Shown here in pieces: positions 1 to 15,613 of a stretch of DNA of 15,613 bases. The notes beneath the pieces were generated by a model. It ran no database searches. It had not been told where the DNA came from and saw only the letters and a list, made by a program, of their open reading frames with translations. Position numbers and translations under genes: made by a program. Location of the stretch: the NCBI GenBank assembly GCA_030671095.1, contig DAOVAK010000017.1, positions 1 to 15,613 on the forward strand, written 5' to 3'. This DNA is from Deltaproteobacteria bacterium. GTDB taxonomy: Bacteria; Desulfobacterota; DSM-4660; Desulfatiglandales; HGW-15. The first letter of the stretch is position 1. Each line of letters starts with the position of its first letter.

Positions 1-1
1 A

Positions 2-313: not shown

Positions 314-679
314 TCGCCGTTTATTCCCAATGGTAAGTCGCTGCCCTTGCTACGGTCAGTCTTTGCCACAAATTGTGGTCTCCAAAAACAGGCCAATAGT
401 TTTGACTACTGCTTCTATGTGGCGTTCAGGGAACCCCGAAAAAGGCAACATTAGCATTTGTAAGCTTCTAGATTTCAGTGACGTTTTAGAGGCCGTTTTG
501 AGGCAAAAAATCTGTTTTTTCTTCTAAGTCCGATCCTCTGTGCTCTACCCCTCCCAAACCGTCTATTCTAAGTTAAAAGAACCCAATTCCATCTATTTTC
601 TCGGGCAATGTGCCGTACCCGATTCCTTTACTTGGAGAATTTCTAGGAGCTGATGGTTCATTTGGAGGTTAAAATTATT
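314..679. other. Gene-poor stretch with no clear feature
   Basis: No convincing intact gene lies between the PilZ remnant and the promoter of the next gene. A 113-codon open frame covers 186-527, but its first half is only the out-of-frame shadow of the PilZ segment and its second half matches nothing I recognise. Between about 335 and 435, two different frames show cysteine-containing pieces (RCPCYGQS in one, ATNCGL and FDYCFY in the other) that would join into something like a zinc ribbon if frameshifts were allowed. This may be decayed coding sequence, but the signal is weak. No terminator or RNA gene was seen. Confidence 0.4.
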
Positions 680-708
680 TTGACTAAAAGGACTCTCCTC
701 TATATTAT
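680..708 (+). promoter_or_regulatory. Sigma70-type promoter for the AI-2E family transporter gene
   Basis: TTGACT at 680-685 and TATTAT at 703-708 are separated by exactly 17 bp. Each hexamer differs from the consensus at one position. Transcription would start near 715, leaving a short leader before the ATG at 731 that contains AGGG at 717-720 as a modest ribosome binding site. The response regulator gene downstream may be cotranscribed. Confidence 0.72.
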
Positions 709-730
709 TTCCCATTAGGGAAATTAATAA

Positions 731-1792: not shown

Positions 1793-1864
1793 GGGGTGTT
1801 AAAACCATGCGTTCATGTTGTAATGCGAACTTGGGAGATTTGATGAATTAAAGGAGACGCCGAA

Positions 1865-2353
1865 ATGGAACCGGAAAAAATGCTCAAAGGGAAGAGAGTC
1901 CTCATCGTGGATGATGAGCCTGATGTTCTCGAACTGCTTACCGAACTCCTGGATATGTGTAAGGTGGACCCCGCATCTTCCTTCGAAGAGGCCAAAGAAC
2001 TTCTTGAGAACAATTACTATCACATTGCGGTCCTCGATATTATGGGTGTGCAGGGATACGAGCTGCTTGAAATTGCAAACGAGCGAGAAATCCCTGCCCT
2101 CATGCTCACGGCACATGCAATTTCCCAAGAGCATCTCAAGAAATCCATTCAGAAGGGGGCCTCTTTTTACGCGCCAAAAGACGAAATAAACAAAATCGCC
2201 ACCTTTTTGGCTGACGTGCTTGAGGCGAGAGAAAAGAAGAAAAACGTATGGGCCAAGTGGTATGAGCGGCTGAGTGGTTTCTGCGATAGGAGATTTGGGC
2301 CTAACTGGAAGGACCAGGATCCAGAATTCTGGGATTCTCTGATCAAGTATTAA
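1865..2353 (+). CDS. Single-receiver response regulator with a short conserved-looking tail
   Basis: This 162-residue protein consists of one receiver domain (about residues 10-120) and a tail of some 40 residues. All phosphorylation residues are present: acidic pair D16-D17, phospho-acceptor D58 in VLDIMG, T82 in MLTAHA and K105 in APKDE. No DNA-binding or enzymatic output domain follows. The tail is aromatic-rich and ends with RRFGPNWKDQDPEFWDSL, a pattern I associate with orphan receiver proteins of Desulfobacterota; that is recall, not a search. The ATG at 1865 is supported by AAGGAG at 1851-1856 with 8-nt spacing. No histidine kinase is in the window, so its partner is elsewhere. It follows the AI-2E family gene and may share its transcript. 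It probably acts by protein-protein interaction in a phosphorelay. Confidence 0.87.
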   Translation: MEPEKMLKGKRVLIVDDEPDVLELLTELLDMCKVDPASSFEEAKELLENNYYHIAVLDIMGVQGYELLEIANEREIPALMLTAHAISQEHLKKSIQKGASFYAPKDEINKIATFLADVLEAREKKKNVWAKWYERLSGFCDRRFGPNWKDQDPEFWDSLIKY

Positions 2354-2379
2354 TCACCAGATGCCGGATACCGGATTCT

Positions 2380-2519
2380 GCCTGCCCGCCGTTCCATCCT
2401 CCGTAGCCCCGCAAACGGGATCTCCGCTTCGCTCCGACTGACTACTGCGGAGGATGGAGAGGACGGGCGGCTTCGCCTTCCCCGACCCGGAACGGGGCGG
2501 GGCAGGCGAGGCGGGCGGG
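2380..2519. repeat. GC-rich palindromic repeat, long copy (140 bp)
   Basis: The element starts with GCCTGCCCGCC (2380-2390) and ends with AGGCGAGGCGGGCGGG (2504-2519); the ends are imperfect inverted repeats (CCTGCCCGCC against GGCGGGCGGG). Inside, 2391-2406 (GTTCCATCCTCCGTAG) is complementary with small gaps to 2442-2460 (CTACTGCGGAGGATGGAGA), so the left half folds into a long hairpin. Both terminal sequences recur exactly at 9979-10016. It is much richer in G and C than its surroundings and fills most of the gap before fbp. It looks like a non-autonomous MITE- or REP-like dispersed element; no encoded protein was seen. Confidence 0.7.
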
Positions 2520-2540
2520 GATGCCAGATGATAGATTTAA

Positions 2541-2545
2541 GGAGG
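2541..2545 (+). promoter_or_regulatory. Ribosome binding site that fixes the fbp start
   Basis: GGAGG at 2541-2545 lies only 1 nt before an ATG at 2547 but 7 nt before a second in-frame ATG at 2553. The spacing therefore favours 2553. Confidence 0.75.
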
Positions 2546-2552
2546 GATGGAA

Positions 2553-3584
2553 ATGGTTACCAGAGGCGTGGGCATTACCGTAACGCAACACCTTCTTAAC
2601 GAACAGCGTCAAAATCCGGAGGCCACCGGAGCCTTCACTCACCTTCTCAACGAATTAATTGTTGCCGCCAAAGTCCTATCTCGGGAGGTAAACAAAGCGG
2701 GTCTCGTGGACATTCTTGGGTACACGGGTGATATCAATGTGCAGCAAGAGAGGGTCCAGAAGCTGGACATTTTTGCCAATCGAGTGATCATAGAGAGGAT
2801 GCAGCATATCGGCCAATTGTGTTGCATGGGTTCAGAGGAGATAGCCGAGCTGATCGATATACCCCCGCAATATCCAAAGGGAAATTACATCCTCCTCTTT
2901 GACCCCCTGGACGGTTCTTCCAATATTGATGTGAACGTGAGTATTGGCACCATATTCGGTATTTATAAAACAGAGAGCGATGAAACGGACGTGGACTTTC
3001 TCCTCAGTCACGCCCTCCAGCCCGGGATCAAACAGGTGGCTGCAGGCTATTTCGTTTACGGCTCAAGCACCATTCTGGTCTACACCACGGGGAACGGGGT
3101 CCATGGCTTCACCCTGTATCCGAGCGTGGGGGAATTTCTCCTCTCCCATGAGAGTATCCGCATCCCTGAAAAAGGAAAGACATATAGCGTCAATGAGGGG
3201 AATTACCAATACTGGGATGATAAGACAAGGGCCTGTGTGGATTATTTCAAGACCAAAGACAAGGACACGGGACGCCCCTATACCTCGCGCTATGTGGGAA
3301 GCCTGGTCGCGGACTTCCACCGTAACCTCCTAAAAGGGGGCATTTTCATGTATCCGGCTGATCTCAAAGACCCCAAGAAACCAAGAGGCAAGTTGAGGCT
3401 GATGGTCGAATGCAATCCTCTGGCCATGGTGGTAAAGGAAGCGGGTGGGTATGCCAGTGATGGGCATGGGCCTATCCTCGAAATACAACCCACCGATTTA
3501 CACCAAAGGGTGCCCCTGTATATCGGAAGCAAGCAGGATGTGGAGACAGCGGAGGCGTTTATCAGCGGTCGCGGGAGTGGGTAG
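2553..3584 (+). CDS. fbp: Class I fructose-1,6-bisphosphatase
   Basis: This 343-residue cytosolic enzyme removes the 1-phosphate of fructose 1,6-bisphosphate in gluconeogenesis. Class I signatures run in order: GDINVQQE (59-66), the metal-binding glutamates of GSEE (E95-E96), FDPLDGSSNIDVNVSIG (116-132) with D117, D120 and the GSS phosphate loop, RYVGSLVADFHRNL, and the C-terminal ECNPLAMVVKEAGG. Length and order are normal for the bacterial and plant-type class I enzyme. The start at 2553 is chosen because GGAGG at 2541-2545 is too close to the in-frame ATG at 2547. The gene is separated from the response regulator by the 140-bp repeat and converges with the HgdB-like gene, with only 13 nt between the two stop codons. 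Class I enzymes are the type inhibited by fructose 2,6-bisphosphate in eukaryotes, which matters because of the gene at 8549-9763. Confidence 0.96.
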   Translation: MVTRGVGITVTQHLLNEQRQNPEATGAFTHLLNELIVAAKVLSREVNKAGLVDILGYTGDINVQQERVQKLDIFANRVIIERMQHIGQLCCMGSEEIAELIDIPPQYPKGNYILLFDPLDGSSNIDVNVSIGTIFGIYKTESDETDVDFLLSHALQPGIKQVAAGYFVYGSSTILVYTTGNGVHGFTLYPSVGEFLLSHESIRIPEKGKTYSVNEGNYQYWDDKTRACVDYFKTKDKDTGRPYTSRYVGSLVADFHRNLLKGGIFMYPADLKDPKKPRGKLRLMVECNPLAMVVKEAGGYASDGHGPILEIQPTDLHQRVPLYIGSKQDVETAEAFISGRGSG

Positions 3585-3597
3585 TCAAATCAACAAT

Positions 3598-4608
3598 TTA
3601 ACCCCTTCCCTTGTCCGTTAGCATCTCAATAAACGTCTCTATGCGGATAGCTGTCCGGCTATCTATTCCGCCAGGACGATCCCCCTCAAGAGTGAGGATG
3701 GGAACAGAGATGCTTTCCCTCAATATGATGTCATATATCTGTCTAAAACAGAATGTCTGCGTGTAATGGATCAATCCGTCTAAGTTTCTCTCCGTGCAAG
3801 CCCTTTTGATATCCTCAATTCTACCCTTCATGTCGTAAGGATATGTGTAGCGAAGATACTGTTCTACGATATCCTCATCTTCATATGGCATGCTGAATTG
3901 CCTCTGGATCTCATTAAAAACAACCCTGCCCCCAAGGGATTCGATACGATCGTAGAAGTCATTGAATATGGGGGGGACACCCAAGAATCCGAGCCTTACC
4001 TCCTCTTTTTTTCCCTTCCTATGTTCAACGCTTACGAGAAACTCATCCAACTCCCGTTCAAATTGGTCAGGATCTGACTTGAAATCCGAGCTACTCACCA
4101 AGAACAGGTGATTCTCAAAACCGCTGACCACATTCTCCTGAAAGGTGAGTCTATCCAGTTCTATCAGTTTTTTTCGGATCCGATCCAGCCTCCTCTTTGC
4201 CGCGCGGATATCAGACCAAGTAGCGGAAAGGGCGCGCCTCAACTTCTCCATCTGGGCCATCAAGAGATCCCTGTCCTGACCTGGGGGATAATTAAAGGGG
4301 ATGATCTCCACGCCTCTTCGGGTGAGAACTTCAGCCAGGGCGACCGTATTGCTACAGTCCCCTCCGGTTACTGCGATGACCCTCTTCACGTTATGGTTTA
4401 TAACCGTGGAGTAGATCCCTTTTATCCATGCACAGATGTTGGGGGCAAATCCAGCTGATTCAGCCTGAGTGATGAGTTTCCCGGGTCTGTCTGAACTGAC
4501 AAAGACATTATTCAAATCCACCGGTTTCAGGCCAGCGGCAAAAACAATTTCAACCGGGATGGTGGAAGTGAGACCAATAACGGATGAAGGCTTCGTTTGC
4601 TGGGCCAA
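3598..4608 (-). CDS. 2-hydroxyacyl-CoA dehydratase D-component family protein (HgdB/FldC/BcrB-like)
   Basis: This 336-residue protein belongs to the HGD-D family, whose members form [4Fe-4S] subunits of 2-hydroxyacyl-CoA dehydratases and benzoyl-CoA reductases. Visible marks are IGLTSTIPVEIVFAAGLKP near the N-terminus, C59 in APNICAW, C85 in TGGDCSN, a central helical linker (about 115-160), the C-terminal HYTQTFCFRQ with C287, and the closing EGDRPGG followed by RIETFIEML. C59, C85 and C287 are the likely cluster ligands; C271 is the only other cysteine. The start is TTG at 4606-4608, backed by GGAGG at 4618-4622 with 9-nt spacing; no ATG or GTG lies between it and the upstream in-frame stop. 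It is the last gene of a coupled set with the phosphoesterase and the radical SAM protein. Neither a second dehydratase subunit nor the ATP-dependent activator is nearby, so substrate and even dehydratase activity are open. Confidence 0.88.
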   Translation of the reverse strand: MAQQTKPSSVIGLTSTIPVEIVFAAGLKPVDLNNVFVSSDRPGKLITQAESAGFAPNICAWIKGIYSTVINHNVKRVIAVTGGDCSNTVALAEVLTRRGVEIIPFNYPPGQDRDLLMAQMEKLRRALSATWSDIRAAKRRLDRIRKKLIELDRLTFQENVVSGFENHLFLVSSSDFKSDPDQFERELDEFLVSVEHRKGKKEEVRLGFLGVPPIFNDFYDRIESLGGRVVFNEIQRQFSMPYEDEDIVEQYLRYTYPYDMKGRIEDIKRACTERNLDGLIHYTQTFCFRQIYDIILRESISVPILTLEGDRPGGIDSRTAIRIETFIEMLTDKGRG

Positions 4609-4612
4609 ATAC

Positions 4613-5260
4613 TTAGGCCTCCACTGAATAGAATTTCATGCGAGGGATCTCAAGACAGGTCAATTTGTTCCCGTAGACGGCCCCTGTATCCAGGCCTATC
4701 TTATTATCCATCACCAGGGGTTCAGCTAAAGGCGTATGGCCAAATATGACCTTCTTTCCAAAGTCATAATCGGAAAAGATGAATGGCTCTCGAATCCATA
4801 TGAGGTCCTCGGTGGCCTGTTTCTCAACCTCCACACCGGGTCTGAAACCCGCATGAACCACATAATACTCATCAAGCTCAATGTATAAGAAAAGGCTTTC
4901 GAAAAAGGCCACATGTTCCGGAGGAATGAGAGCCTCCTTCTCCCCCTTTTCCTCCACCTGGTAGCTTTCTAACGTGGTTATTCCCCCATTGAGAAGCAAC
5001 AGCCTTGGGTCTCCACTATTCAAGAAATCCAGCAAAATATTCTCATGGTTCCCCATGAGACATTGAACGAGGGGAGAGGAATTTGAAATCTCAATAATAT
5101 AATCGACCACACCCTTGGAATCCACTCCCCGATCTATGTAGTCTCCAAGGAAGATCAGTCCGTCTTCCTCAGGTCGCCAGTCGATCTTGTCCATCATCCG
5201 CTTCAGCGGATCCAGGCAGCCATGTATATCGCCAACGATGAATAACCTTTCGCTTTCCAT
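4613..5260 (-). CDS. PPP-family metallophosphoesterase (Ser/Thr phosphatase or Ap4A hydrolase-like)
   Basis: This cytosolic phosphoesterase of about 215 residues carries the full PPP signature: GDIHG (10-14), GDYIDRG (39-45), GNHE (70-73), then HAGF and GHTPL in the C-terminal half. These residues bind two metal ions. Relatives include bacterial PrpE/PphA-type protein phosphatases and symmetrical Ap4A hydrolases, and the sequence alone does not decide between them. The stop codon of the upstream radical SAM gene overlaps the start: TGA at 5260-5262 shares one base with the ATG at 5258-5260, and an in-frame GTG at 5261-5263 is an alternative start one codon earlier. No good Shine-Dalgarno sequence precedes either, which fits translational coupling. 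Its last codons contain the ribosome binding site of the HgdB-like gene. Confidence 0.88.
   Translation of the reverse strand: MESERLFIVGDIHGCLDPLKRMMDKIDWRPEEDGLIFLGDYIDRGVDSKGVVDYIIEISNSSPLVQCLMGNHENILLDFLNSGDPRLLLLNGGITTLESYQVEEKGEKEALIPPEHVAFFESLFLYIELDEYYVVHAGFRPGVEVEKQATEDLIWIREPFIFSDYDFGKKVIFGHTPLAEPLVMDNKIGLDTGAVYGNKLTCLEIPRMKFYSVEA
4618..4622 (-). promoter_or_regulatory. Ribosome binding site for the TTG-started HgdB-like gene
   Basis: On the minus strand GGAGG lies 9 nt before TTG (4606-4608) and inside the last codons of the phosphoesterase gene. It supports the TTG start and suggests coupled translation. Confidence 0.75.
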
Positions 5261-6192
5261 CACAGTCCAAAAACCAGCCGAATTCGGTCCCTGGGGTCGA
5301 GTCGCGTCAGACCCGCTTTCCGCGCTGTATCCGTGGCATCTCTGAACTCCTGAGATGACAAGCGGCGATTGATATGTTCATCCTTATGAGCTTCTCCGCA
5401 GGGCCTGTATTGGTCCATAACATTCACATAGGTGTCGGGAGAGATCTCTTTGACCAGAAATTCAAATACCTTCTCAGAACCGGCAATATTGTCTGGCATG
5501 ACCAGGTGTCTCACCAGCAACCCCCTAAGTGCCAGCCCTCGATCATCTATGATCAGGTCTCCCACCTGCCGGTGCATCTCCTTGAGGGCCGCCATGGCGA
5601 CTTCCGGATAATCAGGGGCCTCGCAATACCTCTCTGCCCATTTTCCATCCCAGAACTTAAAATCGGGCATATAAATATCAAAAATGCCGTCCAAGAGCTC
5701 CAGCGTTTCCACCTTGTCGTAGCCGCCGGAATTATAAACAAGGGGTATTTTCAGACCTTGCTCTACGGCGAGTATCAAGGCTTCGAGCAACTGTGGAACC
5801 ACATGGGTGGGTGTCACAAAGTTGATATTGTGGCAGCCCCTCTCCGAGAGTTGAAGCATCATGGCTGCCATGTGCTCAGGCTCAACCTCTACGCCCTCTT
5901 TCAGGTGGCTGATATCGTAGTTTTGGCAAAAACTGCAGAGTAGATTGCATGAACTGACAAAGATGGTCCCAGACCCATAACTTCCCACGAGGGGCGATTC
6001 TTCACCAAAATGGGCGTTATAACTTGCAACTCGAGCCTTCCTCCCCGTTTCGCAGTAACCCAGCTCTCCCTCCAGGCGGTTCACCTCGCATTCGCGTGGA
6101 CAGAGGCTGCACGACGCCATAAGGTCAATTGCCTTTTCGATACGGCTCGAAAGCTCCCCTTCCCCAAACAACTTTAAATAGGACGGCTCCAT
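5260..6192 (-). CDS. PflX-like radical SAM protein (COG1313 type)
   Basis: This 310-residue protein resembles the uncharacterised PflX group of pyruvate formate-lyase activase homologues. The radical SAM motif is C82-N-L-L-C86-S-F-C89, followed by QNYDIS. Before it lies a second cysteine group, C28, C31, C35 and C47 (CSLCPREC, then GYC), typical of this group and able to hold another cluster or a metal. NFVTPTHVVPQLLEA, PLVYNSGGYDKVETLELLDG and DIYMPDFKFWD are family-typical strands of the partial TIM barrel. A glycyl radical partner is not visible in the window. It heads a three-gene set and overlaps the phosphoesterase start. The ATG at 6190-6192 has only a weak upstream GAGAGG at 12-nt spacing. 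Radical SAM membership is firm; the target is unknown. Confidence 0.9.
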   Translation of the reverse strand: MEPSYLKLFGEGELSSRIEKAIDLMASCSLCPRECEVNRLEGELGYCETGRKARVASYNAHFGEESPLVGSYGSGTIFVSSCNLLCSFCQNYDISHLKEGVEVEPEHMAAMMLQLSERGCHNINFVTPTHVVPQLLEALILAVEQGLKIPLVYNSGGYDKVETLELLDGIFDIYMPDFKFWDGKWAERYCEAPDYPEVAMAALKEMHRQVGDLIIDDRGLALRGLLVRHLVMPDNIAGSEKVFEFLVKEISPDTYVNVMDQYRPCGEAHKDEHINRRLSSQEFRDATDTARKAGLTRLDPRDRIRLVFGL

Positions 6193-6281
6193 GCTGGTGT
6201 AAACCTCTCAGGAGAGTGGGGTGTAGGCCCAAATGCGTGTTTCACCATGGATTTCCATGTATTGGTCGGCCTGGTGTGCCT

Positions 6282-6989
6282 TTAATCCCGACTCTGGCCA
6301 AAAATCCTGAGCAGCATCAAAAAGAGGTTGATGAAGTCAAGATACAAGGAGAGTGCACCCAAGATGGCGCCTTTTCTGATCACGGCCCCGTCGATGCCAG
6401 CAGGCTGAGCCAGTGCCATATTTTTTATTTTCTGCGTATCGTAGGCCGTCAGTCCCACAAAGACAAAGACCCCAATATAGCTTACAATCATGCTCATGGC
6501 ACTGCTCCGAACAAACCAATTAGCCACTGAGGCGATAATGATCCCGATCAGGCCCATGAAGAGAAACCCGCCTAGAGATGTGAGATCTCTCTTGGTGATC
6601 CAGCCATATATGCTGCATGCCAGAAAGGTCCCTGCACAGATAAAAAAGGTGCTGAAAATGGATGCGCTAGTATAGGCTTGAAAAATGAACGAGAAGAGCA
6701 CGCCGTTCAGTGTCGAATAAACCACAAAGAGCGCAGTGGCTGTGCCTGCGCTCATCCTGTTCACCATACCGGCTATGGCGAAGACCAGAGCCAGTTGAGC
6801 TATTATGAGGCCAAAAAAGATAAGACTGTTACTGAAAACGAACCGTAATATGGTCTCATTGGTGGAAACGTAGAAGGCCACAAAACCGGTCAGTGCAAGC
6901 CCGATACACATCCAGTTGTAGACACTTCGAACATAATCATTGACCAGGACCTCTGCCGTTGGCTTGGGTACGGAAATCGGTTCTGCCAT
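6282..6989 (-). CDS. Bax inhibitor-1/YccA family membrane protein
   Basis: This 235-residue protein has about seven membrane helices, starting near residue 25, and a short polar N-terminus. The family signature is clear in SYIGVFVFVGLTAYDTQKIK (about 170-189) and in the last helix LYLDFINLFLMLLRIFG. D184 in AYDTQ and D218 in LYLDF are plausible equivalents of the aspartates that form the pH-sensing pair in the calcium-leak channel YetJ; that assignment is inference. Bacterial members are linked to calcium leak and membrane-protein quality control. The ATG is preceded by GAGGAG (6997-7002) at 7-nt spacing and by a near-consensus promoter, so the gene has its own transcription start. The radical SAM operon begins 89 bp downstream and might be read through from here. 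Confidence 0.93.
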   Translation of the reverse strand: MAEPISVPKPTAEVLVNDYVRSVYNWMCIGLALTGFVAFYVSTNETILRFVFSNSLIFFGLIIAQLALVFAIAGMVNRMSAGTATALFVVYSTLNGVLFSFIFQAYTSASIFSTFFICAGTFLACSIYGWITKRDLTSLGGFLFMGLIGIIIASVANWFVRSSAMSMIVSYIGVFVFVGLTAYDTQKIKNMALAQPAGIDGAVIRKGAILGALSLYLDFINLFLMLLRIFGQSRD

Positions 6990-7035
6990 CTAAAATCTCC
7001 TCAGCTTTATTCTGCTGTTTTTTCTACACCTGTTT

Positions 7036-7063
7036 ATTATAGTTTCTCAGGTAAAATCTTCAA
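7036..7063 (-). promoter_or_regulatory. Sigma70-type promoter for the Bax inhibitor-1 family gene
   Basis: On the minus strand TTGAAG (7058-7063) and a perfect TATAAT (7036-7041) are 16 bp apart. Transcription should begin near 7028, giving a leader of about 40 nt that carries the GAGGAG ribosome binding site. Confidence 0.75.
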
Positions 7064-7104
7064 GTCGTAACTGTGACCAGGTAATGAGCCCCTGAGAGGA
7101 CCGC

Positions 7105-8352
7105 CTAGGTCATAGCCTGAAGGGTCTTAATTCTCTCCAATAGGGGAGGATGAGAGTAGTTGAACCAGACATATAGGGGGTGCGGCCGGAGATTGGAAAG
7201 ATTATCCCTGGCCATCTTTTTCAAAGCCAATATGAGCGGCTCAGCCACCTTCATGACCTTGAAGGCGTGGCGATCAGCCTGTCGTTCAAATCCTCTGGAA
7301 ATGGCCATGGCTATGGGTGAGAGGAAAAAGCCGACGGGCTCCCAGAGAACCGCAACGAGAAACAGTCCCGCATAGGCGGGCATGGAGGAAAACCCAAATG
7401 ATTGATACATGGTCTGCCAATTAATCATCTCGGAGGCAAGATAGAAGAGCACGACAGACGAAAGGCCCATGATAACAAGCTGTTTCTTTATATGATTCCT
7501 TTTAAGATGCCCCATCTCATGGGCAAGCACAGCCAGGATCTCATCATCTTCGTGGGCCTTTATCAGGGTATCGAACAGCACGATTCTTTTGCTTTTTCCT
7601 AAACCCGATAGATAGGCATTCGTATGCCTGCTCCTTCTTGTGGCATCCATCTGGAATACACCCTTGAGGGTAAACCCTTCATTTTCTGCAAGATGCTCTA
7701 TTTTCTCTGAAAGCTCCTCCTGCTCAAGGGGGGTAAACTTGTTGAAAATGGGAGCTATCACTGTGGGATAGATGACCGCCATCAGTATTTGAAAGGAAAA
7801 GAAAATGAGCCAGGCCCAGATCCACCACCTGTTGCCCGCATATTTGACCATAATGAGAAGAAGGGATAGAAGCACGGTTCCGATAATCACTGTTATAAGC
7901 AGCGATTTGATCAGATCTGAAAGCCAGGTTTTCAGGGTTCTCGTATTAAAGCCATATTTTTCTTCAATCACGAAGATATGATAATAGTCGAATGGTAGGT
8001 TTACAATGGCCCCAATCAGACCAGGAACAGCGAAAAAGATCAGGCCGGCCAATACGAAATGGACATCTTTCAAGCCCTCGGCCAACCAGGGTAATAGGCC
8101 GGAGAGGATGATGAAAAGAAAGACGATCTTTCCAGTGATCGTCTCCACATGAGAAAAATTTGTCTTGTCGATGGTGTATCGATTGATTTTTCTTAACTTG
8201 TCCGCATCTATTATTCCGCTAAAGGGCTCAGGCACCTGCTCTTTGTATTTCTTTAGATTTCTTGCATTGATCACCTCGATAATAAGATCTGCTGTGGAAG
8301 TGAAAAGATATAGGGCGAGATAGGCGATTAAGAATGTATTAATAGGTATCAT
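7105..8352 (-). CDS. M48 family peptidase, Ste24 (CAAX protease)-like
   Basis: This 415-residue integral-membrane zinc peptidase has the layout of Ste24/CAAX prenyl protease 1. An N-terminal membrane region (helices near 5-30, 72-90, 97-120, 150-170, 175-200) leads to the catalytic domain. There, HEMGH (278-282) supplies two zinc ligands and the catalytic glutamate, and GFERQAD supplies E356 as third ligand with D360. The family tail HPLYVWFNYSHPPLLERI (391-408) is also present. In eukaryotes the family trims prenylated proteins; bacterial homologues, like the related HtpX, are better seen as membrane-protein quality-control proteases. That role is inference here, but the neighbouring Bax inhibitor-1 family gene, a family also tied to membrane-protein turnover, is consistent with it. 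Start is ATG at 8350-8352, with only a close, weak GAGAG before it. Confidence 0.93.
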   Translation of the reverse strand: MIPINTFLIAYLALYLFTSTADLIIEVINARNLKKYKEQVPEPFSGIIDADKLRKINRYTIDKTNFSHVETITGKIVFLFIILSGLLPWLAEGLKDVHFVLAGLIFFAVPGLIGAIVNLPFDYYHIFVIEEKYGFNTRTLKTWLSDLIKSLLITVIIGTVLLSLLLIMVKYAGNRWWIWAWLIFFSFQILMAVIYPTVIAPIFNKFTPLEQEELSEKIEHLAENEGFTLKGVFQMDATRRSRHTNAYLSGLGKSKRIVLFDTLIKAHEDDEILAVLAHEMGHLKRNHIKKQLVIMGLSSVVLFYLASEMINWQTMYQSFGFSSMPAYAGLFLVAVLWEPVGFFLSPIAMAISRGFERQADRHAFKVMKVAEPLILALKKMARDNLSNLRPHPLYVWFNYSHPPLLERIKTLQAMT

Positions 8353-8548
8353 CTCTCAGTTCGAAGGGCCTCTGCAGAAAAGCTGTCCCATGGCGGAATG
8401 CTAAGATATTTACTTCTACCTTATCATATTGTAAAAGTATTGTACTAAATTTTTTGGCGGACCTTCGTTTCAAGCCGATGAATTTATGGAATAAATTCTA
8501 AGATCTTTCTTTTGAAAGAGGTCTGGTCCACATTACAGGAATATAGGC
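8353..8548. promoter_or_regulatory. Divergent intergenic region with a direct-repeat candidate operator
   Basis: This 196-bp region sits between two divergent starts and must hold the promoters of both the M48 peptidase and the PFK-2/FBPase-2 gene. I found no convincing -35/-10 pair on either strand. Two structures stand out. TATTGTA occurs twice in direct orientation (8427-8433 and 8438-8444), 11 bp apart, about one helical turn. A small inverted repeat, CTTTC and GAAAG around TTTT, lies near 8504-8518, shortly before the kinase gene. Neither has an assigned function. Confidence 0.35.
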
Positions 8549-9763
8549 ATGAAGGACAATAAACTCTATATCGTCATGGTCGGTCTTCCCGCTAGGGGGA
8601 AGTCCATCACAGCCACCAAACTCAAAGAGAACCTAATGCATGACTCGATCAAGACCAGGGTTTTCAACAACGGTGACCTGAGGCGGAAAATGATTCCCCA
8701 GAATACCTCCTACGCCGGATTCTATGATCCGAAGAACAAAGAAGGGGTGGCTATCAGGGAAAAGATAGCCCTCATTAACATGGACAAGGCGCAGAGCTAT
8801 CTCAGGAGAAATGGGGATGTGGCCATTTTGGATGCGACGAATGTGAGCCTAAAACGCAGAAACACCATTCAGAACCTGCTGAACGACCACCCTATCCTCT
8901 TCATTGAATGCATTAACAATGACCAGGAGATCCTCAGCGCTAGCATACAGAGGAAGATAGCTATGCCAGAGTTTGGCCATCTCACCCGAGAAGAGGCCAT
9001 GGAGAGTTTTGAGGAGCGAATCTTCTACTACGAATCTATTTATCATTCTTTGGGTACGGAAAGGAATTTCTTTAGATTGGATTCACTACACACCAGAATC
9101 CTTGAAGAAGAGATAGATCATGATATCCCCTATTATGAGCAGATAAGGGATTTCCTGGTCACAGACACCGTGAAGAACCTCCACCTGATCCGTCACGGAG
9201 AGACCTACTTCAACCTGGAAAATCGGATTGGGGGGGACGCTGACTTAACAGCGAACGGCAGGGCACAGGCCAAGGCCTTGGCCCAACACTTTGCAAAGAA
9301 AAAGATACCGCTCATTTTTACAAGTCAGAAGAAGAGAACGATACAAACGGCAGAGCCCATCAAGGAGATGCAGGGAAACTGTACCATCGTCCCTTTGGCC
9401 GAGTTTAATGAGATCAACAGCGGTATGTGTGAAGGGATGAGTTACGAGGAAATCAGGAAAATCATGCCCCATGTCTATTTTGCAAGAAGAAAGGACAAAT
9501 ACAATTATGTCTATCCTGAAGGAGAAGGCTATATCTCCATGGAAGAGAGAATCGACCGTGGTATCAAGAAAGCGCTTTTTCTAAGTGGGCCCTCTGACAA
9601 CATTATGATCATTGGGCACAGGGCTGCAAACCGAATGATCCTTTCCCATTTCCTCTATCGTCGAAAAGATGATGTGCCCTATGTCTATGTTCCCCTGGAT
9701 AAGTTCTACTATATCTCGACCACTCAAAACAAAAAGGTGTTTCAGTTAAGAAAATACCAATAA
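8549..9763 (+). CDS. Bifunctional 6-phosphofructo-2-kinase/fructose-2,6-bisphosphatase homologue
   Basis: This 404-residue protein has the two-domain order of eukaryotic PFKFB enzymes. The kinase half (about 1-205) has Walker A GLPARGKS (12-19), FNNGDLRR (39-46), matching FNxGxxRR at the eukaryotic sugar-phosphate site, FYDPKN (58-63) and DATN (95-98). The phosphatase half (about 208-404) has RHGET with the phospho-accepting H216, ENRIGGDADLTANGR, FTSQKKRTIQTAEP, the catalytic glutamate E288 in NEINSGMCEGMSYEEIR and the second histidine H357 in IIGHRA. All residues expected for making and breaking fructose 2,6-bisphosphate are present. That metabolite is an established eukaryotic allosteric signal, activating PFK-1 and inhibiting FBPase. 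The usual eukaryotic N-terminal regulatory extension is absent. The gene stands alone, divergent from the M48 gene, with fbp about 5 kb away. A different phosphosugar substrate cannot be excluded. Confidence 0.88.
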   Translation: MKDNKLYIVMVGLPARGKSITATKLKENLMHDSIKTRVFNNGDLRRKMIPQNTSYAGFYDPKNKEGVAIREKIALINMDKAQSYLRRNGDVAILDATNVSLKRRNTIQNLLNDHPILFIECINNDQEILSASIQRKIAMPEFGHLTREEAMESFEERIFYYESIYHSLGTERNFFRLDSLHTRILEEEIDHDIPYYEQIRDFLVTDTVKNLHLIRHGETYFNLENRIGGDADLTANGRAQAKALAQHFAKKKIPLIFTSQKKRTIQTAEPIKEMQGNCTIVPLAEFNEINSGMCEGMSYEEIRKIMPHVYFARRKDKYNYVYPEGEGYISMEERIDRGIKKALFLSGPSDNIMIIGHRAANRMILSHFLYRRKDDVPYVYVPLDKFYYISTTQNKKVFQLRKYQ

Positions 9764-9805
9764 TTTCAGATTGCGCACCTATTGCTGAAGTTCTTCACTC
9801 TCCCG

Positions 9806-9967
9806 TCACTGCTCCATCTGCGGATCTGACAGCTCACGCCTCTGATAGGAGATGCCGCCCCATGTAAAGGATATCTGCCAACAGTCCATAAAAGTCACGA
9901 GATAATGCATAAGAGCTTGTACCCGATACGCGGCCTCCTTGCTCGCCCGAAGGGCTGAGCTTATTTT
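9806..9967 (-). pseudogene. Possible 3' remnant of a gene beside the repeats
   Basis: On the minus strand an open frame of about 54 codons reads from the edge of the GC-rich repeat to a TGA at 9806-9808. Its sequence (SALRASKEAAYRVQALMHYL, then a Trp-rich FTWGGISYQRREL and SDPQMEQ) looks like a protein tail and not like random translation. The WGGxxYxRxxL end is reminiscent of the C-termini of some membrane-anchored family 2 glycosyltransferases, but this is resemblance only. Upstream the frame runs through the repeat copies, so no natural start is visible. It may be a gene truncated by repeat insertion, or chance. Confidence 0.25.
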
Positions 9968-10030
9968 GGCCAATCGCCGCCTGCCCGCCATCGCGAGCTC
10001 AGGCGAGGCGGGCGGGTCTCCCGATTGGCC
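9968..10030. repeat. Palindrome GGCCAATCG/CGATTGGCC enclosing a short GC-rich repeat copy
   Basis: GGCCAATCG (9968-9976) and CGATTGGCC (10022-10030) are perfect inverted repeats; the similarity extends outward imperfectly. Between them is a short copy of the repeat seen at 2380-2519: GCCTGCCCGCC at 9979-9989 and AGGCGAGGCGGGCGGG at 10001-10016, both identical to the ends of the long copy, with only 11 bp between. The whole can fold into one long hairpin in the gap between two convergent genes. It lacks a T-tract on either strand, so it is not a canonical terminator. Confidence 0.65.
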
Positions 10031-10054
10031 AAGAAAAAGTAATCTCTCTGTGCT

Positions 10055-10095
10055 CCCTGCCCGCCATCGCCAATGCTCAGGCAAGGCAGGCGGGT
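10055..10095. repeat. Third, diverged copy of the GC-rich repeat
   Basis: CCTGCCCGCCATCGC recurs at 10056-10070, followed by GCTCAGGC and then AGGCAGGCGGGTCT, closely following the short copy 38 bp to its left (shared CCTGCCCGCCATCGC, CTCAGGC and GGCGGGTCT). The two copies lie in direct orientation. Together with the copy at 2380 they show that this is a family present several times in the genome. Confidence 0.6.
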
Positions 10096-10137
10096 CTGTG
10101 CCTCAGTGGTGAATCTTTTTCTTTGCATTGACATTTC

Positions 10138-10923
10138 TCAGAGTCCCCTTCTATTCATGACTCTCATCTCTCTCGCCTTGGCGTATTTTAGGAAGGACCC
10201 TCCCGCATTCGTGGTGGAAATGACGAAGCCGTCAAAGCCATCGAGGACTCCCAATTCCAGGAAATAAGTCCTTAAAAACATCCACAGACCATGGAGAATG
10301 GGCGTGACGGCATTCACCTTGGCATTTTTCTCAAACAGTTCTTTTGAGGCGAGGTTGGAGTAGTTCTCCATCTTGGCCAGAAGTTCAGAATAATTTCTGA
10401 AGCTGATGTGTTCGATAACCGCATCAAGTCCTCTCACGCCCCCCTCAGTGACCCATCTTTCGTGAACCGGCCTGCCATCAAAACCCCCCACTTTCCTGTT
10501 CACAAGACGCACAATGCGATCAGGCCACCAGCCGCAGTGCTTTATCCATCTGCCATGCAGGTAATTCTTGCGTCTGAAGCCATATGCGGAGATTGTGGCA
10601 TCATTTCTGGCCAGTTCTCCCATTATGATGTGGGCCGTCTCCTGGGGTATCCTCTCATCTGCGTCGAGTATCAAAACCCAGTCATGAAGGCACCGATCAA
10701 CGGCATACTGTTTCTGCCCCGAGTAACCTCTCCACGCCTCAATGAGCACCCTGGCTCCGAGGGATTTGGCCAACTCCACGGTGCCATCCGTACTGCCTGA
10801 ATCCACCACCAGGACTTCGTCTGCAAACGCGACGCTTTGCAGGCAATCTGGAAGCCTCTCTTCCTCGTTCTTCGTGATGATGGCAACAGAGAGCGGGGTC
10901 TTATTCTGCACGTCCTCTTTCAT
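10138..10923 (-). CDS. Family 2 glycosyltransferase, WaaE/KdtX-like
   Basis: This 261-residue GT-A enzyme opens with the classic LSVAIITKNEEERLPDCLQS, then VLVVDSGSTDGT (37-48) and the nucleotide-sugar/metal motif LDADE (86-90). The central and C-terminal parts match lipopolysaccharide-core glycosyltransferases of the WaaE/KdtX type: NYLHGRWIKHCGWWPD, RLVNRKVGGFDGRPVHE and IEHISFRNYSELLAKM. The C-terminus has a hydrophobic stretch (about 208-240), which suggests membrane association. It probably adds a sugar to lipid A-core or a related surface glycolipid; donor and acceptor are unknown. It stands apart from the TraB gene by 205 bp. The ATG at 10921-10923 has no evident Shine-Dalgarno sequence. 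No other surface-polysaccharide gene is in the window. Confidence 0.9.
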   Translation of the reverse strand: MKEDVQNKTPLSVAIITKNEEERLPDCLQSVAFADEVLVVDSGSTDGTVELAKSLGARVLIEAWRGYSGQKQYAVDRCLHDWVLILDADERIPQETAHIIMGELARNDATISAYGFRRKNYLHGRWIKHCGWWPDRIVRLVNRKVGGFDGRPVHERWVTEGGVRGLDAVIEHISFRNYSELLAKMENYSNLASKELFEKNAKVNAVTPILHGLWMFLRTYFLELGVLDGFDGFVISTTNAGGSFLKYAKAREMRVMNRRGL

Positions 10924-11033
10924 AACAATTCAAATATCATGAAAGTTCTGTTTTGTAAAAACTCGGATTTTATCGACAAATTAGACATTGCCTTTTCCAA
11001 TTCCTGTGGAGTCTCTTTCAGTTGACCCCAATT

Positions 11034-11126
11034 TCGCAACGCTATTTTGTAGACATCGCAAAACTGGTCATTGCGAGTCCCGCCAAGCTTGGACCCGCAA
11101 AGGGGGGCGGCGGGGCGAAGGGGGGA
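11034..11126. repeat. Imperfect palindromes in the gap between the TraB and glycosyltransferase genes
   Basis: CCAAGCTTGG (11083-11092) is a perfect 10-bp palindrome, flanked by TTGCG (11071-11075) and CGCAA (11096-11100), so 11071-11100 can form a stem-loop. TTGCGA (11071-11076) can instead pair with TCGCAA at 11056-11061, a motif also found at 11034-11039. A G-rich run, 11101-11125, follows. This looks like another dispersed GC-rich element or a structured leader. On the minus strand it lies after the TraB gene and before the glycosyltransferase. Confidence 0.4.
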
Positions 11127-11128
11127 TT

Positions 11129-12292
11129 TTATGTGAACACCCTCATCATGAGAGGGATGGCCACGAAGGTTCCCAGCGAACTCCCTAGGTTCGTAAATAC
11201 TACTACAAGCAAGATCCGAGTGATCTTATTCTTCCAAAATCCTTTTAGCGTCGAGATGTCTTCAGGCAGGTTCTCAAAATCTCTCACTTTCGGTTTGCCC
11301 AAAAAGGCCTCAACCAGGCCGGAAACCCAGCCGGCAGCAATCATGGGATTGAGAGATGTCATGGGAGAGGCAACAACGGCGGATAGAACCGTCAATGGAT
11401 GGGCCAGGGCAATGGCGGCTCCAAGGCCTGCCAGTACGGCATTAGCCAGAATCCACCACTTGATCATGTGAGCGCCACCGCTGGTTCCAGCCACGAAAAA
11501 ACCGAAGATGATAAACCCCAATATGAGAGCTGGGATACCCCACTTGAACACGCGGGACAGCTGGCCTTTGGGAGGTATTCGCTCCAGCGCAGCCACATCT
11601 ACGGGCTTTTCCCAATACGCCTGAATGCCAGGTACATGTCCTGCCCCGACCACGGCCACGATCCTTCCACCGGGTGCTGTTCTGATCTTATGGGCAAGAT
11701 ACTGGTCCCTTTCATCAATCAAGATGCGTTTAATTTCTGGAAAGGATTCCCCAATTTCTGAGAGGAGGGTCTCGAGGACATCCTTCCTTTTTATCTTCTC
11801 AATATCTTCCTCTTGGATAGCGTCTATTTGCCCTGCTGAAATAATTAGCTGTGCTAACAGCTTTATCTTTCTCCAAAAACCCATGACGCGCCACGTCCGG
11901 GATAGGGTGGTACGGATATCCCTGTCCGCCAAGTGTACATGGGCCCCAATTGCCTCTGCTGAGGCAATGGCTCGCAAGACCTCCTCTCCAGGCCTTATCC
12001 CCAACTTCTTCCCGATTTTCTTCTGGAAGTAGGCGAGCATGAGATTGGAGAGGAGCAAAAAAGCCTTCTTCTCTTTGATAACCTTGAGAAGATCCGTGTC
12101 TTGCCATTTTTTCTTCTTCGTAAGCGATTGAAATCTGGACTCGCAGAGTTCGATACAGACCGTCTCGGGTTTCTCCTCTTCAATGACCTGCGCAACAAGG
12201 TCAGCGCTCTCCCTGGATATGTGGGCTGTTCCGACGAGGGTGATTTCCTTATCTTCGAAATTCAAACGGTGACTGTTGGTGTCGTTCACCAT
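11129..12292 (-). CDS. TraB/PrgY/GumN-family membrane protein
   Basis: This 387-residue protein has an N-terminal TraB domain (about 15-225) and a C-terminal membrane region. TraB signatures are LVGTAHISRESADLV with GTAH at 21-24, CIELCESR (46-53) with E48 and E51, LADRDI (121-126), ERDQYLA (194-200) and VGAGHVPG (215-222). These conserved histidine and acidic residues suggest a metal-dependent enzyme related to the Tiki/ChaN-like group. Hydrophobic helices near 251-270, 277-297, 300-328 and 358-384 anchor it. PrgY, the best-known member, reduces pheromone activity in Enterococcus; in a Gram-negative anaerobe the substrate is unknown. The gene starts 29 bp after the M16 peptidase on the same strand, so cotranscription is likely. 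The ATG at 12290-12292 lacks a strong ribosome binding site. Confidence 0.9.
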   Translation of the reverse strand: MVNDTNSHRLNFEDKEITLVGTAHISRESADLVAQVIEEEKPETVCIELCESRFQSLTKKKKWQDTDLLKVIKEKKAFLLLSNLMLAYFQKKIGKKLGIRPGEEVLRAIASAEAIGAHVHLADRDIRTTLSRTWRVMGFWRKIKLLAQLIISAGQIDAIQEEDIEKIKRKDVLETLLSEIGESFPEIKRILIDERDQYLAHKIRTAPGGRIVAVVGAGHVPGIQAYWEKPVDVAALERIPPKGQLSRVFKWGIPALILGFIIFGFFVAGTSGGAHMIKWWILANAVLAGLGAAIALAHPLTVLSAVVASPMTSLNPMIAAGWVSGLVEAFLGKPKVRDFENLPEDISTLKGFWKNKITRILLVVVFTNLGSSLGTFVAIPLMMRVFT

Positions 12293-12321
12293 GGGTTTAT
12301 CGTCTCTATAATTTCCTGGAC

Positions 12322-15300
12322 TCAGCGCAGTTCAATTTCAGTGTATGGAACGCCCATGCTCTTTGCCAGATCCTTCAGATCCTGCTCGAGGGTGATCTGT
12401 GTCCCATCTTTCCTTCTCACACTGGTCGTCTTATCCGCCACAACAAAGACCTGGAGCTTTTCCGGCTCGAGGAGTTTTCCTGCTAGAGCCCTCAGTTCCT
12501 CCCTCGAGGCGCCCATGAAGGCATCCTGGATTCGTTCGAGGGTGTCCAGGGGCTCCTTGCGCATATAATAACGGCCATAAACCTCCACCAGTTCGGCCGG
12601 CGTGTCCACATTGAAGACAAAACTATTCAGTGCATCGAGCCGTTTCAACTCCAGATCTTTGTGGGGAACGTGTTCCCGTAGCCCCTTCATGATCTCCACC
12701 GTCTCCTGAATCGCCCGGCCTGTTCTGTCACTTTTGCAGCCAATGTATCCAACAAGCATACCCGTCTTCCACCTGTACGTCTGATAAAACCACGCAGCAT
12801 AGACAAACCCCAAATCGTCTCGCAAGCGGGTGTACAACAGGGAATCCTTTCCGCCAAAGACGTTCATGAGGAGACTCACTTTCCAGTAATCTGGATGTGT
12901 ACGCTTTACACTGCTGAGGAGGAGTGCCACCTGAGATTGAACCTGGCCGGGCTTATGGACCAAGGCCAAGATGGGCGGGGTCTCGGGCGGATCATCAAGT
13001 TCCCTCACGGGTGCCCTTTTCTCAGGGAATGCCTGGAAGAGTCGCTTCAACCCTTTTGTGGCTCTGCCCCTTTCAATATCGCCTGAAATGGCCACCACCA
13101 TATTTGAGGGCACAAAATACGCCTTTATGAACTCCTTTAAATCATCCGGCGTGATGGTTGGGATCGTCTTCAAACCGTGGAGGGGATCGCGACCATAGGG
13201 ATGTCCCTTAAAATGCCAGATCTTCGCTTCGCGGCTGCTGACGGTCTGTGCGTCGCCGCCTTGACGCCTGAGCCCGATCAATGCCTGCCGCTTGACCACG
13301 TCAACCACCCGAGGATCGAACCTGGGACGCATCAGGACTTCCTCCAGCAAGGCCAGCCCCTTCTCCCAGTCATCTTTCATCACCGAGAGGCTTACAAGCG
13401 CCTCCTCTGCGTGGACTGAAACGGAGAGTTGTATCGCGTTTTCGTCCAAAGCCAGCGCCAATTCAGCTGGCGAGTATTTCTCGGTCCCACCGCGGATAAG
13501 GGAACCCCTTAGCACATGGGTCAAGCCGGTTTTTGCATCTCTCACATCAACTGCCCCCGCCTTCACAAGAAGGGTCAAATCAATCAAAGGGAGTTCCCGG
13601 TCGGGCAAATAGAATAGGGTCGCCCCCTCCACTTGGGCAGTTTCCGCTTTTGCGTATTTAATCTTTTCAGGGTGACGTTCGAAGGAGAGAGGATGCTCCC
13701 AGCCGAGAGGCGTAGGATAGATTGAGTGGTTGACAAGCGTTTTGGGCCTGAACATCTTGGCTGCGGCCGCTCCACTTACAGCCCTGTCTTCGGTGTATGC
13801 TTCAGGAGGACGCTCAGGCCTGCCACCAGGGATGATATAGACGCTGTTCTGGTTTCTCGTCTGGACAAATTTGTTCGCCACGCGCCTGATTTCCTCCGGC
13901 GTGACTTCTGCTATTTTGTTCAGATAGGTCTTCATGTAGTGCCATCCCACCTGGACTTCTAAAGTCGCCAGAGTGCGTGCCAACTGCTCATTGCTACGCA
14001 TTCTGTCCAAGAAATCTCGCTGGTTCAGCTTCTTGATCCGTTGGAGTTCCCGATGGGAAACCAATTCAGTCTTAAGTCTTTCAACTTCACCAAGAAGAAT
14101 TCTTTGCACCTCTTTGCAGGCCTTCAGGTAGGCCTGCCGCTTCTCTTCATCGCTAAGCGCTTTCTCCTTCAGTTCCTCTGGTTCGTTGGGCGAACCTCCC
14201 AGGATGAGCATACCACCGTAGCGGTTGTCCGGGTTATAGGCCCATGCCTCAACTGCAAGCCCCTTGTTGACGATGTTCTGGATCATACGGGCGCTACGAC
14301 CCTGGCTTAAGATCATGGTCATCGCGTCCAACACGTAGAAATCCTTTGTTCCCATACGGGCCGTATGGAATCCAATCCTGACAAGGGGTGTCCGGGCCCC
14401 CTTCAAGAAACGGACGCTCTGACGCGGACCCTTTTGAAGAGGTTCCCTTGTAACCTCTTCAGGTGCGCGGTTGCCTGCTGGATATCGCTCAAAATAGATC
14501 TCTGCCAGACTCCTGGCCTGCTCCAGCGTCACATCGCCTACCAGCACACAGACTGCATTTGAGGGGTTGTAATATCTCTTGTGAAATGCGATGGCGTCCG
14601 TGGTATTATACTTCTCCATGTCAGGTTTCCAGCCGATGACCGGATTGCGGTAAGGATGAGCCATGTAGGCGGTGGCCTCCAAGTCGAGCCAGGCAGCACC
14701 GTTTGGATTATTGATGTACCGAAAAGCCCACTCCCGCTGCACCACCTCTTTTTCCACGTAGAATTCGCGCCAAGAAGGCTCAAACAACTGTTCGCTGACG
14801 ATTGAAAACCACTGCTCCACCATGTCTGATGGCACTGACATGACGTACTGGGTCTGGTCTTTACTGGTAAAAGCATTGACCCCCACAGCGCCGTTCCTTC
14901 CCAGTTGCGACGAAAAAGCCTGCGGGACATAGATCTTTTGCACCTCAAGCCGCAGCCGCTCCATCTGTTTGAGTTTGGACTCGATCAGGGCCTGGTCAGG
15001 ATGACGTTTAGCCTCCTCTGCCAAGACCACCTGATAAGCGGCCTCAATTTGATCCTGCAGTTCCTGGTCCTTTTTGAAATCTGAAGTGCCTAAGTTCTTC
15101 GTCCCTTTGAACATCATGTGCTCGAGCAGATGCGCAATGCCCGTCTTGCCCGTCTCTTCAAGAGCAGAACCCGCGCGGATAGCAACCCGGCAGGCAACCT
15201 GCGGTGTGGTTGGGCGCTCCACGATCAAGAACTGCATGCCATTATTGAGCTTGAACTCCTTCACATCCAGCCTGATCCTGGAGGCTGGATCCTCAGCTAC

Positions 15301-15363
15301 GCAGATACCTACACCAACTGCCAGAACAAGCCATCCGACAAGAATAGCCCTAAAAAGCCTCAC
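12322..15363 (-). CDS. Secreted M16 family peptidase with two M16 units (pitrilysin-like)
   Basis: This 1013-residue protein begins with a signal peptide (MRLFRAILVGWLVLAVGVG, cleavage near residue 23) and is predicted periplasmic. The first M16 unit carries the inverted zinc motif HLLEH (78-82), followed by MMFKGT. The segment EKEVVQRE (204-211) supplies the downstream glutamate ligand. The usual gap between motif and ligand, about 75 residues, is lengthened here by a charged helical insertion (about 93-145) likely to form a coiled coil. The second half, from about residue 550, repeats the fold with THVLRGSLIRGG where the zinc motif would be, so it is non-catalytic, as is normal for M16 pairs. 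The C-terminal LYTRLRDDLGFVYAAW is family-typical. The start is GTG at 15361-15363, with GGAGG at 15372-15376. The TraB gene follows after 29 bp. Confidence 0.94.
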   Translation of the reverse strand: MRLFRAILVGWLVLAVGVGICVAEDPASRIRLDVKEFKLNNGMQFLIVERPTTPQVACRVAIRAGSALEETGKTGIAHLLEHMMFKGTKNLGTSDFKKDQELQDQIEAAYQVVLAEEAKRHPDQALIESKLKQMERLRLEVQKIYVPQAFSSQLGRNGAVGVNAFTSKDQTQYVMSVPSDMVEQWFSIVSEQLFEPSWREFYVEKEVVQREWAFRYINNPNGAAWLDLEATAYMAHPYRNPVIGWKPDMEKYNTTDAIAFHKRYYNPSNAVCVLVGDVTLEQARSLAEIYFERYPAGNRAPEEVTREPLQKGPRQSVRFLKGARTPLVRIGFHTARMGTKDFYVLDAMTMILSQGRSARMIQNIVNKGLAVEAWAYNPDNRYGGMLILGGSPNEPEELKEKALSDEEKRQAYLKACKEVQRILLGEVERLKTELVSHRELQRIKKLNQRDFLDRMRSNEQLARTLATLEVQVGWHYMKTYLNKIAEVTPEEIRRVANKFVQTRNQNSVYIIPGGRPERPPEAYTEDRAVSGAAAAKMFRPKTLVNHSIYPTPLGWEHPLSFERHPEKIKYAKAETAQVEGATLFYLPDRELPLIDLTLLVKAGAVDVRDAKTGLTHVLRGSLIRGGTEKYSPAELALALDENAIQLSVSVHAEEALVSLSVMKDDWEKGLALLEEVLMRPRFDPRVVDVVKRQALIGLRRQGGDAQTVSSREAKIWHFKGHPYGRDPLHGLKTIPTITPDDLKEFIKAYFVPSNMVVAISGDIERGRATKGLKRLFQAFPEKRAPVRELDDPPETPPILALVHKPGQVQSQVALLLSSVKRTHPDYWKVSLLMNVFGGKDSLLYTRLRDDLGFVYAAWFYQTYRWKTGMLVGYIGCKSDRTGRAIQETVEIMKGLREHVPHKDLELKRLDALNSFVFNVDTPAELVEVYGRYYMRKEPLDTLERIQDAFMGASREELRALAGKLLEPEKLQVFVVADKTTSVRRKDGTQITLEQDLKDLAKSMGVPYTEIELR

Positions 15364-15371
15364 GCTTCATT

Positions 15372-15376
15372 CCTCC
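15372..15376 (-). promoter_or_regulatory. Ribosome binding site that fixes the GTG start of the M16 peptidase
   Basis: On the minus strand GGAGG stands 8 nt before GTG (15361-15363). The ATG just upstream on that strand is out of frame, so GTG is the start and gives an intact signal peptide. Confidence 0.75.
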
Positions 15377-15436
15377 CCTATTCGTTTGATTTTATCCCCC
15401 TACCTCCGTTCACAAAAGAGGGGCATCATTTCCCCA

Positions 15437-15613
15437 CTACTTGATCCGATACATTGGCCATTCTAAATGCGCCTTTTTGCAACGAGGGCACCTACCAGGT
15501 CGCGTGAACCGCCTTCTCTCTTCAAAGACATATCCACAGGCCAGGCACTGGAAAGGCAAAACGACGAGCTTCTTTTTCTGGGCGGCAAGAGAACGTGCAA
15601 TATGAGGTAGATG
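15437..15613 (-). CDS. C-terminus of an HTH/zinc-ribbon regulator (COG3357-like), cut by the window edge
   Basis: On the minus strand 58 codons run from the right edge to a TAG at 15437-15439. The protein reads HLPHIARSLAAQKKKLVV, then a zinc ribbon with two CxxC pairs: CLAC and, 15 residues on, CPRC. It ends LEWPMYRIK. The short LxHIxxSL helix, the CGYVF and RPGRCPRCK stretches and the aromatic last strand match what I recall of predicted transcriptional regulators with a winged-helix domain fused to a C-terminal zinc ribbon. The DNA-binding part would lie outside the window. The gene ends 73 bp before the M16 gene start, on the same strand, so cotranscription is possible. Confidence 0.75.
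   Translation of the reverse strand, partial: HLPHIARSLAAQKKKLVVLPFQCLACGYVFEERRRFTRPGRCPRCKKAHLEWPMYRIK

Follow-up and report, generated by a model that had tools for sequence, protein, structure and literature searches.

We report that a 15,613-nucleotide stretch of DNA from a Deltaproteobacteria bacterium (assembly GCA_030671095.1, contig DAOVAK010000017.1, positions 1 to 15,613; hereafter the window) carries a gene whose product is probably a minimal bifunctional 6-phosphofructo-2-kinase/fructose-2,6-bisphosphatase (PFK-2/FBPase-2, or PFKFB), running a make-and-break cycle of fructose 2,6-bisphosphate (F2,6-P2). The eukaryotic members of this family include PFKFB1-4, plant F2KP and yeast PFK26/FBP26. 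The family is a known one and a bacterial exception is already in print; the window gene appears to be an intact further member of what is, judging from the sequences, a substantial bacterial group.

A sequence-only reading of the window had proposed that a complete PFK-2/FBPase-2 is encoded in this bacterial genome, and this holds: the open reading frame at 8549-9763 contains both Pfam domains, a P-loop kinase followed by a histidine phosphatase, in the same order as the eukaryotic enzyme, with each score far beyond chance and above its curated cut-off (Table 1). The closest solved structures by sequence are the PFK-2/FBPase-2 entries 3bif and 1bif, which we take to be the rat testis form, and human PFKFB3, with E values of roughly 2e-62 to 2e-61 and an alignment spanning residues 6 or 7 to 385; the window protein is predicted to have the PFK-2/FBPase-2 fold over its full length. 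Unlike the eukaryotic enzymes, it is a 404-residue core without regulatory tails. NCBIfam gave matches of the protein to 15 families, every one of them under its cut-off (CobC, 91.2 versus 162.9 bits); alpha-ribazole phosphatase CobC, PhoE and other branch-1 histidine phosphatases differ from the window protein in having no kinase half.

The Walker A motif at residues 12-19 and H216, E288 and H357 are found where the sequence-only reading had placed them, and the catalytic residues and charged substrate contacts, which are shared with the eukaryotic enzyme, are intact. We tabulated the active sites of 58 bacterial sequences (56 loci, the window and protein P0241) with 26 eukaryotic rows for comparison; L014, L017 (the same locus as L049) and L018 lie outside the 58 and were aligned separately, and they too keep the key catalytic residues. 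The Walker A lysine, K18, is kept in 58/58 bacterial sequences. According to a passage of PMC3177832, the polar fructose 6-phosphate (F6P) contacts in PFKFB3 are R74, R75, R98, D124, T126, R132, R189 and Y193. All eight match in the window protein (R45, R46, R70, D95, T97, R103, R157 and Y161), and all are invariant across the 58 bacteria except the equivalent of T126 (window T97), which is Thr in 48. Equally invariant is window K136, the equivalent of PFKFB3 K168.

The phosphatase half is similarly well preserved. The catalytic Arg-His, Arg, Glu and His are present as R215-H216, R263, E288 and H357, and these residues, together with R313, K317 and Y328, are invariant in 58/58 bacteria, with Y299 kept in 56. 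In liver numbering we take the FBPase-2 substrate residues to be Y338, R352, K356, Y367, R360 and Q393; the window keeps the first four as Y299, R313, K317 and Y328, and has V321 at the R360 position and R358 at that of Q393. R263 is noteworthy because Ser302 at the equivalent position is held responsible, in a passage of PMC6131595, for the weak phosphatase of PFKFB3. As a separate observation, the RHG glycine beside the catalytic His (window residue 217), which is Gly in 26/26 eukaryotes, is replaced by Thr in 17 (e.g. L011 and L024) and by Ala in three (e.g. L010 and L025) of the 58 bacteria, the window itself not being among them.

The specificity control consisted of non-PFKFB proteins from related genomes, 11 P-loop kinases and 10 histidine phosphatases, and several of the compared positions contain gaps. 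These proteins share the general catalytic residues with PFKFB. The equivalents of R132, K168 and Y193 are found in 0/11 of the kinases, and those of window Y299, K317 and Y328 in 0/10 of the phosphatases, all ten of which are branch-1 enzymes.

Several observations weigh against assigning F2,6-P2 chemistry to the window protein. The F6P-pocket comparison suggested by the sequence-only reading, carried out here by alignment, came out only in part: the eight polar contacts match, and the further human pocket positions T48, V70, F87 and Y424, named for PFKFB3 in a passage of PMC3177832, differ (window S19, N41, Y59 and N394, the last with an unsure alignment). Among the 58 bacteria, the V70 position is Asn in all, the F87 position either Tyr (42) or Phe (16), the T48 position Ser in 55, and the Y424 position D, N, H or R in 48 (the four commonest residues, with no Tyr, in a C-terminal region where the alignment is unsure); the first three are thus conserved among bacteria as S, N and Y/F, unlike most eukaryotes. 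On the phosphatase side, Arg occupies the liver R360 position in 23/26 eukaryotes and in 1/58 bacteria, and the Q393 position is Arg in 40/58 bacteria and in 10/26 eukaryotes. The pocket residues are moreover partly unspecific: the other kinases share R74 in 11/11 cases, D124 in nine, T126 in seven and R98 in six, and the R352 equivalent is Arg in 4/10 other phosphatases. The predicted model orients the two domains unlike the PFKFB crystals (root-mean-square deviation 15-17) and has low confidence at residues 372-404; the Z score does not discriminate for the phosphatase half, with 20.3 for isolated FBPase-2 and 20.2 for a phosphoserine phosphatase. Finally, the two activities, the metabolite, its target and the physiology are all things that we infer.

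The strongest rival, which we regard as unlikely, is that the bacterial proteins keep PFK-2/FBPase-2 chemistry and apply it to another sugar phosphate, e.g. a different ketose phosphate, so that the window protein would be no F2,6-P2 enzyme at all. Since the human V70 and Y424 positions are not kept, this alternative gains and F2,6-P2 chemistry loses slightly. The shared Asn at V70, a further shared Asn at the C154 position (window N123; 57/58 bacteria), the near absence of the R360 arginine and the frequent Arg at Q393 all fit a changed substrate. Neither a characterised bacterial PFK-2/FBPase-2 nor an assay of a bacterial member was found in the open-access literature searched, which was screened mostly by titles and abstract openings, most subscription journals being outside this scope. 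Against a changed substrate, the charged F6P contacts of PFKFB3 are invariant in 58/58 bacteria (T97 being the one that varies), and at both sites the specific residues are conserved jointly. A further, improbable rival is that the protein is made and is in practice monofunctional, working as kinase or phosphatase only, as several eukaryotic isoforms do. The family does tolerate loss of the catalytic His (3/26 eukaryotic rows), and T or A replaces the RHG glycine in 20/58 bacteria; however, in the window and in 58/58 bacteria neither half has lost a catalytic residue.

Both domains of the window protein are related to the eukaryotic enzyme. For the main tree we retained 46 of the 58 bacterial and 22 of the 26 eukaryotic sequences, and for the domain trees 23 of the bacterial ones; the eukaryotic rows are animals, plants, fungi, one MMETSP transcript and some rows assigned as eukaryotic, with thin protist sampling. 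P0262, P0267 and P0271-P0274 were assigned as eukaryotic and P0241 as bacterial, and those of them in the tree fell on their assigned sides. A single branch with 100/100 support splits the 46 bacterial from the 22 eukaryotic sequences, the bacterial group standing on a long stem. In this phylogeny against eukaryotic PFKFBs, which had been suggested as a check, each group is single, and the window protein is not nested among eukaryotes but sits on a separate branch. Nor are its homologues merely scattered, as the sequence-only reading had put it; in the sampled tree a large set of bacterial sequences lies together across that branch, deeply split from the eukaryotes. In the domain trees the bacterial and eukaryotic rows are again each single (92/85 and 93/91 for the kinase, 92/97 and 100/98* for the phosphatase). 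Other histidine phosphatases fall outside at 99/98* (nine rows) and other kinases at 91/74, unstarred (ten rows); these outgroups are few and long-branched, and the phosphatase tree carries a warning that eukaryotic and outgroup long branches meet.

The simplest reading of these trees would be one fusion event and an old bacterial-eukaryotic split, so 'eukaryote-style' should not be taken to mean 'acquired from eukaryotes'. Because one fully supported branch separates the two groups, the sequences lend no support to recent transfer from any of the eukaryotes sampled. Recent horizontal acquisition of a ready-made eukaryotic PFKFB, or eukaryotic contamination, would explain the identical domain order and the 27-35% identity (median 32%) between the window protein and eukaryotic enzymes, but we consider it very improbable, given that the highest identity among the 58 x 26 bacterial-eukaryotic pairs is 37% versus up to 75% to the window for bacterial loci and up to 95% for metagenome proteins, that other bacterial contigs carry the gene block in synteny, and that in genomes G027, G087 and G283 the contigs bearing PFKFB measure 2.8, 3.3 and 4.2 Mb.

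The window gene is not a stray. A protein search matched 2807 proteins (E <= 1e-3). The best 120 of these have both domains and share 68-95% identity with the window protein; for those with a named source, the names include Desulfobacteraceae, Deltaproteobacteria and Candidatus Scalindua rubra, and two of the 120 are already named 6-phosphofructo-2-kinase/fructose-2,6-bisphosphatase. Proteins annotated as 'histidine phosphatase family' or 'AAA family ATPase' in Desulfobacterota-type bacteria and in Scalindua belong to the window protein's own group, with the same two domains and 45-95% identity. A scan that took a single genome for each species hit 43 stretches; a relative is encoded in 30 of these, in two cases partially. 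Strong matches (>100 bits) are present in 42 of the 297 genomes sampled from the Desulfobacterota-type phylum of L001's genome, or in 34/289 without the eight previously known carriers (G001, G003-G006, G009, G011 and G012); 45 of the 297 exceed the Pfam cut-off, and we counted G214, G263 and G302 (27-35 bits) as PFKFB-negative. The family also occurs in anammox planctomycetes. The sole strong genome among 149 of the planctomycete phylum is the search centre itself, G002 (Scalindua), with 0/148 among the others; further Scalindua-named proteins are found among the best 120 of the 2807, and L002 is a Brocadiaceae contig.

We rejected three other possible locations of the family. Of 198 genomes in the phylum of a spirochaete-labelled bin, the search centre G451 alone matched strongly, and this match is probably misbinned, lying on a contig of 4.1 kb that has a window-type block. 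Locus L028 (contig JAFGRV010000525.1, 1-4129), in a Spirochaetales-labelled bin, holds a block of fructose-1,6-bisphosphatase (FBPase), ApaH-like, radical SAM, Bax1 and partial PFKFB genes, and it is probably misbinned because this window-type block and the bin's only FBPase match sit there. As for phage cargo, none of 10 pattern matches in viral contigs is a relative, and as for plasmid cargo, 55 plasmid records matched, but in none did any one place span 80% of the query.

If the window gene does encode a bifunctional PFK-2/FBPase-2, the N-terminal P-loop domain would phosphorylate F6P at C2 using ATP, and the C-terminal domain would strip this phosphate via phospho-His216, with E288 as acid/base. 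Possessing both activities, the cell could therefore set its F2,6-P2 level. The likeliest effect would be competitive inhibition of class I FBPase by F2,6-P2, perhaps accompanied by an effect on a phosphofructokinase (PFK), with the outcome that gluconeogenesis and glycolysis would be kept from running against each other. Class I FBPase is the enzyme that F2,6-P2 blocks in eukaryotes; in this family the inhibitor acts at the active site.

The distribution of class I FBPase makes it a suggestive, unproven target. The window itself encodes one upstream of the PFKFB gene, and among 59 PFKFB loci (four duplicates left out) such a gene lies 2.2-5.0 kb upstream in nine, or in 8/34 of those with at least 5 kb of upstream sequence. 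Window aside, the linked loci are 65-74% identical to the window PFKFB and share a conserved block; the block is not an operon, since opposite-strand genes intervene, and the linked loci are not shown as one clade in the main tree. Across genomes, class I FBPase is present in 42/42 strong PFKFB genomes versus 129/255 others (raw Fisher p 1.1e-11), and in 34/34 without the seed genomes (p 7e-10). The other FBPase, GlpX, is equally frequent in the two sets (8/42 versus 48/255), and PFK is found in 41/42 versus 223/255.

A role of FBPase as partner also meets contrary evidence. No constant neighbour was found across the 59 PFKFB loci that could serve as an operon partner; of 17 additional genomes with PFKFB, 15 gave a class I FBPase match and two gave none, and among the 15 one match sits on a probably misbinned contig. 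We placed 160 of the 297 genomes on a RecA tree, 41 of them PFKFB-positive and 119 negative (78 of the latter with FBPase; the negatives are the best-scoring RecA matches listed, not a random choice, and G242 is absent for want of a RecA match). PFKFB requires just eight changes on this tree, and by independent pairs the FBPase association is not significant, with three starred pairs (eight on all branches) and FBPase differing in about 0.3 of the starred ones. A specific PFK type as partner was tried and rejected: the motif could be read in 28 of 50 PFK loci (L101-L150), the types are mixed across PFKFB genomes, and G258 has no PFK match. The types seen are GGDG with PKTIDND, GGED with PKTIDGD, and long forms of about 440 residues; the Asp of the GGED/PKTIDGD motif usually indicates pyrophosphate dependence.

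Turning to the other features of the window (Table 1), the class I FBPase reads ATGAFT at residues 26-31, in its N-terminal segment, versus ATGELT in E. coli; should this be the AMP site, AMP allosteric control may differ. The predicted FBPase structure was too poor for use (predicted local distance difference test score, pLDDT, 37). The protein encoded at 3598-4608 is weakly like a double-cubane reductase (51 bits versus a 350-bit cut-off) and is found in 8/59 loci. A promoter and terminator scan of 8330-9860 gave matches no more frequent than chance, and an Rfam scan gave no match at the gathering threshold. In the G+C-rich intergenic stretch at about 9985-10100, 3' of the PFKFB gene, a motif like CCCGCCATCGC...GGCGGG appears twice by eye; a repeat finder (>=22 nt) did not report it.

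Table 1. Features of the window, with coordinates and supporting scores
Feature	Position	Strand	Details
Fused 6-phosphofructo-2-kinase/fructose-2,6-bisphosphatase (PFKFB-type; probable)	8549..9763	+	ATG to TAA, 404 aa plus stop
6PF2K kinase domain, residues 2-172	8552..9064	+	Pfam 141 bits, E 4e-41, cut-off 27
Walker A GLPARGKS, residues 12-19	8582..8605	+	sequence
Histidine phosphatase (FBPase-2) domain, residues 211-397	9179..9739	+	His_Phos_1 127 bits, E 1e-36, cut-off 21.7
Class I fructose-1,6-bisphosphatase	2547..3584	+	NCBIfam class 1 FBPase 481 bits; 5 kb upstream of PFKFB gene
2-hydroxyglutaryl-CoA dehydratase D-component family protein	3598..4608	-	136 bits
M48-family CAAX-type peptidase	7105..8352	-	divergent from PFKFB gene, gap about 196 bp
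Family 2 glycosyltransferase	10138..10923	-	convergent with PFKFB gene

The sequence-only reading had described F2,6-P2 as no part of the usual view of bacterial glycolysis. An exception is already in print: a passage in PMC9721465, citing Rider et al. 2004, states that Desulfovibrio desulfuricans, a bacterium of the same broad group as the window's source, is an exception to the absence of F2,6-P2 from bacteria. A 2025 glycolysis review, in the part consulted, treats the regulator for mammals and plants. A far-reaching scenario, speculative and in our judgement doubtful, is that a genuine F2,6-P2 signal operates in Desulfobacterota-type bacteria, and in a few anammox planctomycetes, through an ancient bacterial branch of PFK-2/FBPase-2, and that the fusion arose before eukaryotes or along with them, the textbook eukaryotic regulator having been inherited from, or shared early with, such bacteria. 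Some syntrophy models name this bacterial group as a partner in eukaryogenesis.

F2,6-P2 has been described as a eukaryotic regulator of the switch between glycolysis and gluconeogenesis, and the bacterial group raises the question of whether bacteria use it. The same group bears on the origin of the eukaryotic PFK-2/FBPase-2. Finally, a minimal enzyme free of regulatory tails would help the study of the balance between kinase and phosphatase.
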